This document shows positions 46,466 to 49,910 of a stretch of DNA of 64,000 nucleotides, piece after piece. The notes under the pieces are model-generated. The model saw only the letters and a list, made by a program, of their open reading frames with translations. It had not been told where the DNA came from and made no database searches. The DNA is taken from the NCBI RefSeq assembly GCF_002899455.1, contig NZ_PPFB01000001.1:2758501-2822500 (forward strand), given 5' to 3'. Made by a program: the position numbers and the translations under genes. Source of the DNA: Streptomyces sp. DH-12 (lineage in GTDB: Bacteria; Actinomycetota; Actinomycetes; Streptomycetales; Streptomycetaceae). Each line of letters opens with the position of its first letter. Position 1 is the stretch's first letter.

Positions 46466-46501
46466 ACGCCGGGGCCGCATCCTCGGGAGGATGCGGCCCC
46501 G
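46466..46501. terminator. Bidirectional terminator between Nudix and AIM24 genes
   Basis: GCCGGGGCCGCATCCT pairs perfectly with AGGATGCGGCCCCGGC over 16 bp with a four-base loop. It starts six bp after the Nudix stop and lies 17 bp from the AIM24 stop on the other strand. Confidence 0.88.
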
Positions 46502-46517
46502 GCGCATCGGTACGCGC

Positions 46518-47273
46518 TCAGCTCCAGACGTTGCCCTGGTTCTGGCCGCGGGCGCCCTGCTGGCCCATGCCGTACTGCGCGGCGAGGCCGGAGCCGGTCC
46601 GGGCGTTCTGCGGCGGCAGCAGTTCACTCGGCTGGACCAGCGCGAAGCCGTTGCCCATGAAGCTGAGCTCCCAGCCCTCGCCGGTGTTGCCGCGGCGCCG
46701 CCACACCCCCGAGGAGTGCGTCTGGGCCTGCATCTGCACGCGCAGCGAGGTGGACCAGGCGACGATCGCGTCGGCGTCGCAGTTGACGTACTTGTCCGGC
46801 GTCACCTGGAGCAGCAGCGGCATGCCCGAGGTCATCAGCGCGACCTTGCCCCGGCCGGTGATGTTGAGCTGGTACTTCCCCGAGCCGGAGATGCCGTAGA
46901 GGCTGTCCACGGCGATGACCTCGTGGTGCAGCGAGGAGTCCATCGCGAGGACGTAGCTGCTGTCGACCGTCAGGCCGTCCGGCTCCACGTCCATGATGTG
47001 GATGCGCTGGGCGAGGTTGGCGAGGTAGACGGTGCCCTGCCCGTGGCAGCGCATCAGGTCGAGGCCTTCGCCGGTGTGCGCCCGCGCGCGTGCCCCGCTG
47101 TTGCTCTGGTACTCGGCGTCGAACTCGACGAGTCCCTGGTAGGCGACCATGGCGCCCTTGCGGGCGAGGACGTCCTCGTAGCCGTCGAGGGCCACCCGGA
47201 GCATCTGCTGGTTCTGCAGGCTCCAGCGGTCCTGGGTCTGCTGCTCGTTGTACGCGAAAAGCGGACTCTGCAT
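46518..47273 (-). CDS. AIM24-family protein, third of three
   Basis: A 251-residue AIM24/TraT-associated beta-solenoid protein. The central region has repeated Gly-rich strands (CHGQGTVYLANLAQRIHIMDV, ISGSGKYQLNITGRGKVAL). It ends with a Gly/Gln-rich tail. AIM24 proteins are named after a mitochondrial protein of the inner membrane; bacterial roles are unknown. It follows the second AIM24 gene after 17 bp, in a three-gene operon. There is no signal peptide. Confidence 0.85.
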   Translation of the reverse strand: MQSPLFAYNEQQTQDRWSLQNQQMLRVALDGYEDVLARKGAMVAYQGLVEFDAEYQSNSGARARAHTGEGLDLMRCHGQGTVYLANLAQRIHIMDVEPDGLTVDSSYVLAMDSSLHHEVIAVDSLYGISGSGKYQLNITGRGKVALMTSGMPLLLQVTPDKYVNCDADAIVAWSTSLRVQMQAQTHSSGVWRRRGNTGEGWELSFMGNGFALVQPSELLPPQNARTGSGLAAQYGMGQQGARGQNQGNVWS

Positions 47274-47290
47274 GGTGTGCTCGCTCCCCC

Positions 47291-47971
47291 TCAGCCCCGG
47301 ATCCGGAGACGGTCGGTGCTGTCCTCACTGGGCTGGACGACGACGATGCCCTGACCGGAGAAGGCCATCTGGTAGGCCTCGCCGCTGCCCCGGCCGATCA
47401 GCGACTGGGCGCGGAAGCTGCGCTTGCCCTTCACCTTGAGGTTCGGGGACCAGGCGACCAGCGCGTCGGGGTCGACGTACGTCTCGTCCTCACCGCCTCC
47501 GCAGTCGACGACGATCGGCTTGCCGCGCGAGGTGAGCGCGACCCAGCCCTGCCCGGAGATCTTGGTGTTCCACAGGCCCTGCCCGGCGAACTTCGCCAGG
47601 CCCTTGACCCGCTCCACGCCCCAGGTGAGGTGCGCGTCGAAGGCGAGCAGGTTGGTGGCGTTGACGGAGATGCCCTCGCCGTTGAGGTTGATCACGACGA
47701 CGTTGGCCCCGTAGTCGGCCAGGTAGAGCAGACCGTCGCCGGAGCACTTCATCAGGGGCGCGCCTTCACCGGTGAGCCAGTCCTTGGCGATCTGGCGGAC
47801 GGCCGGCGGGTTGGGCTCGTACTGGACGAAGCCCTCGTAGGCGACCATCGAGCCGACGCGCGCGAAGAGGTCGTGCCCGGTCTGCATGGCGACCTTCAGC
47901 ATGTGGTTGCCGTGGTTCTCCATGCGGGCGGTGACGGGGGCGGGGGCGTAGCCCGCGAGTGGCTGGTTCAT
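47291..47971 (-). CDS. AIM24-family protein, second of three
   Basis: A 226-residue AIM24-domain protein with the same strand pattern as its neighbours (CSGDGLLYLADYGANVVVINL, FAGQGLWNTKISGQGWVALTS, FSGQGIVVVQPSE). ATG at 47971 was selected because the conserved part begins soon after and the gene then starts 11 bp downstream of the TerD-AIM24 stop. The protein may form hetero-oligomers with its paralogues (inference). Confidence 0.85.
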   Translation of the reverse strand: MNQPLAGYAPAPVTARMENHGNHMLKVAMQTGHDLFARVGSMVAYEGFVQYEPNPPAVRQIAKDWLTGEGAPLMKCSGDGLLYLADYGANVVVINLNGEGISVNATNLLAFDAHLTWGVERVKGLAKFAGQGLWNTKISGQGWVALTSRGKPIVVDCGGGEDETYVDPDALVAWSPNLKVKGKRSFRAQSLIGRGSGEAYQMAFSGQGIVVVQPSEDSTDRLRIRG

Positions 47972-47982
47972 GACGGGCTCCC

Positions 47983-49764
47983 TCAGATCTCGTACGGCTG
48001 GACGACGATGAAGTTGCCGGGCGCTCCCCGGAACTGCAGGTTGACGCTCTCCCCCGTGGCGCCGGGGTAGGAGTTGCGGCGCATCCGGACCTGACTGGAG
48101 ACGACCACCTGGGCGGCGGCCGACCACGCGACGACGGCGTTGGCGTCGGCGAACGTGGTGGGCGTGACCGGCAGCACCACGGGCGTGCCGTGCGTCTTGA
48201 CGACGATCGTGCCGGTGCCCTGGAACTGCATCGTGAACAGTGCTCCGCCGGGGATGCCGTGCCCCTCGATGCGGCGGACCTCGTACTGGAGGCCCTCGTC
48301 GAAGGCGAGGACGTTCTCCGCGGAGACGCACACGGCGTCGCCCTGGAGCTCGATCGGGTGCAGCATCGTGGAGTTCTCGGCGAAGAACACCTGTCCCTGG
48401 CCGGTGCAGCGCATCAGCTGCATCTCCTGGCCGGTGGCGTTGCCGACGATGCGGCCGGTGAATCCGGCGCCCTTGTAGCTGAAGTCGACCTTGCCCTGGT
48501 AGAGCACCATGCTGCCCTGCCGGGCCAGCACGGCCGTACCGCCGATGCCCAGGTCGGCGCGGACCAGCTTCTTGTTCTGCTGGGTCCAGCGCTGTCCGGT
48601 GGGCGTCTCCTTGAACTGCTGGAGCGCACCGAGGACGCCGGCCCCCTGCGGGGCGCCCTGCGGCATCCCCTGCGGCACGCCGTAGGGGGCCTGCTGGTGG
48701 GGGGCCTGCTGGTGGGGCGCCTGACCGGGCGGCACCTGTCCGGACGGCGGCTGCTGGCCGTAGCCGGGCGGCGGGGCAGGCGCCTGGGGCGCGGCGGGCG
48801 GCTGCCCGTAGCCGGGCGGCGGGGCAGGTGCCTGGGGCGCGGCAGGCGGCTGCCCGTAGCCGGGCGGCGGGGCGGGGGCCTGCGACGGGGCGGGCGGCTG
48901 CCCGTAGCCCGGAGGCGGCGGGGGTGTCTGGCCGCCGTAGGGGGCGGGCGCGGGCGCAGGGGGCGGCACCGGCGAGCCGCCGGGCGGCGTCTGCAGAGGC
49001 GCCACGATGGTCGGCGCGGCGTGCACCGGCGGCGGGGCGGGCGCGGGAGGCGGCGGGGGCGCGAACCCCTGGGCGGCGGGCTGCGGCGCGGGGGCAGGGG
49101 CGGGTACGGGAGCGGGGGTGGGCGCGCCGCCTGCGGGGACGCCGAACGCGGGCGGAGCGGCGGCCTGCGCGGGCGGCGCGAAACCGGGCGCGGCCTGCGG
49201 GACTTGCGGCTGCTGCGGTTCGGCCGTGGGCTCGTCCTCGGCCACCTCGCCGCCGAAGTTCCGCAGCAGCGCGTCCAGCCCGCCGTCGAAGCCCTGTCCG
49301 ACGGCGGCGAACCGCCACACGTCCTTGAAGTAGAAGTCGCCGAGCATCACGGCCCGCTCGGTGGAGAACTCCGAGCCGCTGAACGGGTACCGCGCCACTT
49401 CCTCACCGCCGGCGACGATACGGATGTACCCGGGACCGATCTGCGACATCTGCCCGGCGCCGTCGATGGTCGCCGTGAAGGACAGCTTCTTGATCTGCTG
49501 CGGGATCCGGTCCAGCGTCACGCGGAAGGACTCCGTGTCGCCGGCCTGGGCGCCCAGCAGCTGGATGGACCCCTCGGGGGACTTCGGCTGGTTGTAGAAG
49601 ACGAAGTACCGGTCGTCGGAGAGCCGCTCGTCGGCGTCGAGTCCGAAGCAGCTGATGTCGAAGCCGAGCCCCGGGCCGGAGATCTGTACCCCTACGTACA
49701 GGTCCGTGCCCGCGGTGAGGTCACTGATCCTGGCCTTGTGGCCGCGTTGGAATTCCCTGGCCAT
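47983..49764 (-). CDS. TerD-AIM24 fusion protein with proline-rich linker
   Basis: A 593-residue protein in three parts. Residues 1-170 form a TerD domain (DISCFGLDADERLSDDRYFVFYNQ carries the calcium-binding acidic cluster, and AVMLGDFYFKDVWRFAAVGQGFDGGLDALLRNFGG the end). Residues 175-370 are Pro/Ala/Gln-rich, with a 16-residue unit GYGQPPAAPQAPAPPP repeated three times. The C-terminal 215 residues are an AIM24 domain. TerD proteins belong to tellurite-resistance and chemical-stress systems. The gene heads an operon of three AIM24 genes. The C-terminal parts of the three proteins resemble one another, which points to tandem duplication. Confidence 0.88.
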   Translation of the reverse strand: MAREFQRGHKARISDLTAGTDLYVGVQISGPGLGFDISCFGLDADERLSDDRYFVFYNQPKSPEGSIQLLGAQAGDTESFRVTLDRIPQQIKKLSFTATIDGAGQMSQIGPGYIRIVAGGEEVARYPFSGSEFSTERAVMLGDFYFKDVWRFAAVGQGFDGGLDALLRNFGGEVAEDEPTAEPQQPQVPQAAPGFAPPAQAAAPPAFGVPAGGAPTPAPVPAPAPAPQPAAQGFAPPPPPAPAPPPVHAAPTIVAPLQTPPGGSPVPPPAPAPAPYGGQTPPPPPGYGQPPAPSQAPAPPPGYGQPPAAPQAPAPPPGYGQPPAAPQAPAPPPGYGQQPPSGQVPPGQAPHQQAPHQQAPYGVPQGMPQGAPQGAGVLGALQQFKETPTGQRWTQQNKKLVRADLGIGGTAVLARQGSMVLYQGKVDFSYKGAGFTGRIVGNATGQEMQLMRCTGQGQVFFAENSTMLHPIELQGDAVCVSAENVLAFDEGLQYEVRRIEGHGIPGGALFTMQFQGTGTIVVKTHGTPVVLPVTPTTFADANAVVAWSAAAQVVVSSQVRMRRNSYPGATGESVNLQFRGAPGNFIVVQPYEI

Positions 49765-49910
49765 GCGTACGACCGTCCCCCATCCCGTATGCGAGTGCGT
49801 CGCGCCAGGCTAACCGCAATCCCCGACACCGGAAGAAGTCGGTACAGACCCGGTACACAGCGCGCAGGCGCCCTCGCTCCGCGTTCGCTCCGGGCGGCTC
49901 GGGGCGGCGG

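Follow-up and report, generated by a model that had tools for sequence, protein, structure and literature searches.

On the minus strand of the window, by which we mean the whole 64,000-nucleotide stretch of Streptomyces sp. DH-12 DNA that was analysed, three consecutive genes, here called A, B and C, lie within positions 46518-49764 (Table 1). Each of them encodes an AIM24 domain (PF01987), which in A is preceded by a TerD domain (PF02342) and a linker: the Pfam E-values were 9.4e-37 for TerD and 3.7e-24 for AIM24 in A, 2.8e-38 for AIM24 in B and 2.1e-31 for AIM24 in C. The AIM24 scores of A, B and C (86, 132 and 110 bits against a curated cut-off of 25.7) and the TerD score of A (126.7 bits against 25.3) are so far above the cut-offs that chance matches are excluded; the scores for the NCBIfam model TIGR00266 (27-47 bits) stay under its cut-off of 96.6 bits. 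The AIM24 domains show pairwise identities of 31-37%, which indicates ancient paralogues and makes recent copying unlikely, and the intergenic gaps of 11 nt (A-B) and 17 nt (B-C) make a single operon likely. Thus, the original prediction of three consecutive AIM24 paralogues, probably in one operon, with a lead gene that joins TerD to AIM24 via a repetitive proline-rich linker was borne out by the profile matches, the spacing on a common strand and the composition of the linker, in which 75 of 218 residues are proline and a 48-bp repeat is present. None of the three proteins contains a 19-residue window that reaches a mean hydropathy of 1.3, so that a membrane helix is not indicated in A, B or C. 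The three adjacent genes scanned by profile encode a YgjP-like protein (upstream of A on the same strand, at a distance of 146 nt), a NUDIX protein (convergent, beyond C) and a Zincin_2 protein.

Table 1. Features of the three-gene AIM24 locus and of the second AIM24 trio of the same genome. Positions refer to the window unless a locus handle is given.
Feature	Position	Strand	Evidence or remark
Gene A, 593 aa, TerD fused to AIM24 via a Pro-rich linker	47983..49764	-	Pfam
TerD domain of A, residues 1-170, lacking GDNxTGxGxGDDE	49255..49764	-	Pfam
Linker of A, Pro/Ala/Gln/Gly-rich, residues 171-396	48577..49254	-	translation
48-bp tandem repeat in linker of A, 3.6 copies	48745..48918	.	repeat search
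AIM24 domain of A, residues 397-590	47995..48576	-	Pfam
Gene B, AIM24, 226 aa, conserved C-terminal ...RG tail	47291..47971	-	Pfam
Gene C, AIM24, 251 aa, tail rich in Gly/Gln/Asn	46518..47273	-	Pfam
Strong hairpin 3' of C, ahead of the convergent NUDIX gene	46468..46506	.	-46.6 kcal/mol, z -5.6
Leader GGATGGGGGACGGTCG directly 5' of A	49770..49785	-	identical in 6/6 same-genus sequences aligned
GTACCGG direct repeat 5' of A	49840..49857	-	similar in 5/6 sequences aligned
Second AIM24 trio T2a-T2b-T2c, same genome, outside the window	L025 8285-10465

Scans for sigma-70 promoters and for T-run terminators at the locus found nothing, and the hairpin downstream of C, which has no T run, is the probable terminator of the trio. 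A regulon sharing an operator was considered for the GTACCGG direct repeat 5' of A, but none was found: the site at A is the only exact match in the genome, and at one mismatch there were five more sites as compared to one in the control.

The TerD domain of A is a full-length Pfam match, and its sequence also matches the solved TerD structures 2kxt/2kxv and 3ibz, from which A differs by its fusion to AIM24 and by the lack of the acidic stretch GDNxTGxGxGDDE. This stretch is linked with calcium binding, and some members of the TerD family do not possess it. The genome encodes 17 TerD domains, seven of which have the stretch, and its absence from A makes the label 'calcium-binding', which the original prediction had attached to this domain, doubtful; many other Asp residues of the domain are invariant in an alignment of 16 A sequences. 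TerD was joined to the AIM24 domain of A wherever the region is visible, with the exception of four frame-split loci and of genome L215, while some loci end before TerD. In the frame-split loci (L140, L204, L219, and L222), TerD is encoded in another frame than AIM24 and the break falls within the repetitive linker, which may be due to assembly errors or slippage in the repeat or, alternatively, to real frameshifts. In L215, which is a long contig, A keeps its linker and AIM24 domain and the trio is present; TerD was not found upstream, and the reading frame in its place (L215 1-1500) is presumably WhiB-like. A TerD-AIM24 fusion without the trio occurs in family f4 (L096, L098, and L105).

The distribution of the three genes was analyzed in several genome sets. 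A sample of 150 Streptomycetaceae genomes was searched for orthologues of A, B and C (E <= 1e-40). Each gene was detected in 91 of them, and the lists, matched by eye, named the identical 91 genomes every time, so that no partial loss of the trio was observed among the 150. Moreover, of 127 different genomes with a known B gene that were mapped, 126 carry A, B and C complete, on the same strand and in the same order; in the exception (L113), the contig ends after B. The full trio was likewise found at 31 of 33 named loci, the rest being one contig end and one lone AIM24 gene in Mycolicibacterium. Among 148 sampled genomes of the class, B-like genes with at least 53% identity were confined to two families: they were present in all 13 genomes of the genus of the window and in 11 of the 12 genomes of family f16 that had any match. 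Among named records, the close relatives of the f16 B protein belong to Frankia, Parafrankia, Pseudofrankia, Protofrankia, Dactylosporangium, Virgisporangium and Fodinicola, and f16 is probably the Frankiaceae. The genes flanking the trio in the window are not those found at the two f16 loci examined, which indicates that the inherited unit is the trio itself. Single AIM24 genes are common elsewhere. The trio is of ancient origin and is inherited as a unit.

This distribution bears on one explanation of the locus, namely that A, B and C result from plain tandem duplication and are retained by dosage or drift with little functional coupling. Their tandem arrangement on a common strand would be expected in that case, but the paralogues share only 31-37% identity and yet every type is conserved over families, and the co-presence without partial loss in 150 genomes speaks against it as well; we regard this explanation as very improbable. 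It has to be noted, however, that partners of one pathway that make no physical contact would likewise be inherited together when encoded in a tight operon.

Phylogenetic analysis of 102 AIM24 domains, which agrees with an earlier tree, recovered an A clade (100/100), a B clade (100/100) and a clade of C with its extra copies (100/99). A, B and C are separate clades of old standing, each of which shows the same internal split by family. The extra copies of C are lone genes found in seven genomes of the genera g73 and g76 (L258-L265); they are recent, in eight contexts no other AIM24 and no TerD gene was found nearby, and their existence implies that C is able to stand outside a trio.

The genome of the window contains seven AIM24 genes in total: the A/B/C trio, a second trio named T2, and a single gene. 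This lone gene lies directly downstream of a gene for a TerD-CAP fusion (L026 8786-10852). The T2 trio is located between two genes that we take to be MarR-like. Of 196 genomes searched within the class, 29, representing five families, contain T2c, and T2a, T2b and T2c were complete and in tandem at all 29 T2c loci. Like the A/B/C trio, T2 consists of three tandem AIM24 genes, but it is separate in the tree and lacks a TerD fusion; a TerD gene was found within 1.5 kb of T2 at only one of the 29 loci (L253, a canonical TerD gene after T2). The members of T2 each form one clade (99/98, 100/98, and 100/100). T2a is sister to T2b (100/91), and the pair falls outside the A/B/C part of the tree. This placement indicates that the two trios arose separately, in other words that the number three evolved twice, and does not support one ancestral trio behind both A/B/C and T2, which had been considered. 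The position of T2c itself is unsure due to its very long branch.

In order to obtain a structural model, the AIM24 domain of A, B and C of locus L052 were joined to one chain of 680 residues with three domains of ~200 residues each, in which the stop codons between the genes were read as serine; the alignment rows were only those loci in which A, B and C all lie in one frame, parted by stops. The AlphaFold2 model based on 7 rows had a pTM of 0.59, obtained with tethered parts, and that based on 10 related rows had a pTM of 0.65 and a modest mean pLDDT of 66.9, again for tethered parts and without PAE or a control chain. By our estimate, a single placed domain out of three could not yield a pTM above 0.6, and such a value points to at least two domains with a defined mutual position. 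The model thus hints at an A-B-C assembly but does not prove it, and the tether may force the contact. Structure comparison of the B part with 1pg6 (Z 12.7, rmsd 3.4, 197 residues aligned) and of the C part with 1yox_D (Z 12.4, rmsd 2.9, 187 residues aligned), together with a Foldseek match of the model to AIM24 structures (E 1.9e-8), shows that these parts of the model have the AIM24 fold of 1YOX and 1PG6. A 1yox match spanning A into B, seen in the 7-row model, was dropped because the matches of the 10-row model are confined to B and to C, and matches to Vicilin-type structures (Z 2.0-2.4) were too weak to be considered.

The trio shares domain and fold with the AIM24 family (PF01987), which includes PA3696 (1YOX), SpyM3_0169 (1PG6), yeast Aim24, plant PAWH1/2 and EOP-1. 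According to PMC6677890, the AIM24 monomer is built from three repeats that resemble TRAP, and PAWH has been modelled on 1YOX/1PG6 as a homotrimer whose ring surface is flat. Yeast Aim24 runs at ~400 kDa, a size that the authors connect with TRAP-like oligomers (PMC3975624), and the fungal protein Neurospora EOP-1 has a disordered N-terminus rich in Pro and Gln and binds itself in yeast two-hybrid (PMC13075794). This N-terminus, located before AIM24, resembles the proline-rich stretch of A. These family members are single AIM24 proteins modelled as or shown to be self-associating, whereas here three diverged paralogues occur together, one of them fused to TerD.

We propose that A, B and C combine in one AIM24 ring with the composition A1B1C1, likely an asymmetric adapter or scaffold, a reading for which we see the balance just on the favourable side of even. 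The three places of the ancestral AIM24 homotrimer would have been taken by the specialised paralogues A, B and C. The ring would bear one TerD, as TerD is found in A alone, on a flexible arm of ~220 residues, and C would add its low-complexity tail. Two separate trios that are incomplete only at contig ends fit with a ring of three places with one paralogue per place, and if every ring is made up of the three members of its trio, the product of the A/B/C operon would be a heterotrimer from which one TerD arm extends. That the set forms an assembly, as already put forward in the original prediction, gains from the strict co-inheritance, the published trimer model (PMC6677890) and the pTM of 0.65 of the joined chain. 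The self-binding of EOP-1, the ~400 kDa of yeast Aim24, the fold of the B and C parts and the distinct tails of the subunits are also in line with the ring. On the other side stand the lone copies of C, the frequent single AIM24 genes, the f4 fusion without a trio, the rarity of TerD near T2 and the trio of L215, upstream of which no TerD was found. We infer the heterotrimer, its 1:1:1 stoichiometry and its scaffold role, and the heterotrimer, at about an even chance, is the firmer part of the proposal. As an asymmetric adapter, the ring would bring a ligand or partner bound by TerD to a client that the remaining subunits hold. This role is a guess by analogy to eukaryotic AIM24 proteins, which are described in PMC3975624 and PMC6677890 as stabilising membrane complexes, and any identity of the client or ligand would likewise be a guess.

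Alternatively, A, B and C might each form their own homotrimeric ring with a different client and be united only by a common pathway or by co-regulation. This would be in line with the known AIM24 structures 1yox and 1pg6, which are single-protein crystals, and with the homotrimeric PAWH model (PMC6677890), as well as with the conserved tail that each of the three proteins possesses and with the lone C copies. Three separate homotrimers, however, leave unexplained why two separate trios both count three genes and why the presence sets of A, B and C are identical, and we consider this possibility unlikely, albeit the most serious competitor of the A-B-C heterotrimer.

In the widest reading of the proposed heterotrimer, a homotrimeric AIM24 ring would twice, and separately, have been made into an obligate three-gene heterotrimer, here with one TerD sensor on a long flexible arm per nine-repeat ring; for this wider claim, our confidence falls somewhat short of even. 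It would mean that filamentous actinomycetes broke the symmetry of the AIM24 ring so that exactly one place carries TerD.

A further possibility, along the lines of the original prediction, is that the locus is a membrane-associated module of the Ter type for stress or for tellurite and metals, in which TerD binds calcium and AIM24 is membrane-seated. TerD often adjoins AIM24 genes (Anantharaman 2012, as cited in PMC5822837), yeast Aim24 is firmly located on the inner membrane (PMC3975624), and a TerD gene accompanies AIM24 genes in L253, where it follows T2, and at the lone AIM24 gene of this genome, which is preceded by the TerD-CAP gene. Contrarily, none of the three adjacent genes scanned by profile (YgjP-like, NUDIX, Zincin_2) is a ter gene, A does not have the acidic TerD stretch, and no membrane helix is indicated, which renders a Ter module improbable. 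The group I ter clusters with an AIM24/TIGR00266 neighbour (Anantharaman 2012, as cited in PMC5822837) share the co-occurrence of TerD and AIM24 with the trio but differ from it: here TerD is fused, the three AIM24 genes score below the TIGR00266 cut-off and the three adjacent genes include no ter gene. The TerD-AIM24 neighbourhood is already published, whereas no paper on the trio was found in an open-access collection, outside which most subscription papers lie.

AIM24 proteins are found in all domains of life, and the physiological function of every bacterial AIM24 protein was stated to be unknown as of 2019 in PMC6677890, which agrees with what the original prediction had said of the family. 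A trio in the genetically tractable Streptomyces offers a direct route to the function of the ring, and its built-in TerD arm a view of the TerD-AIM24 link and of whether ring geometry is behind the recurring three. As regards the ends of the proteins, B terminates in RG at 159 of 167 loci (some genomes were counted twice), and in the two f16 genomes L077 (5934-7070) and L079 (4985-6121), C has a Gly/Tyr/Pro repeat arm N-terminal to its AIM24 domain.
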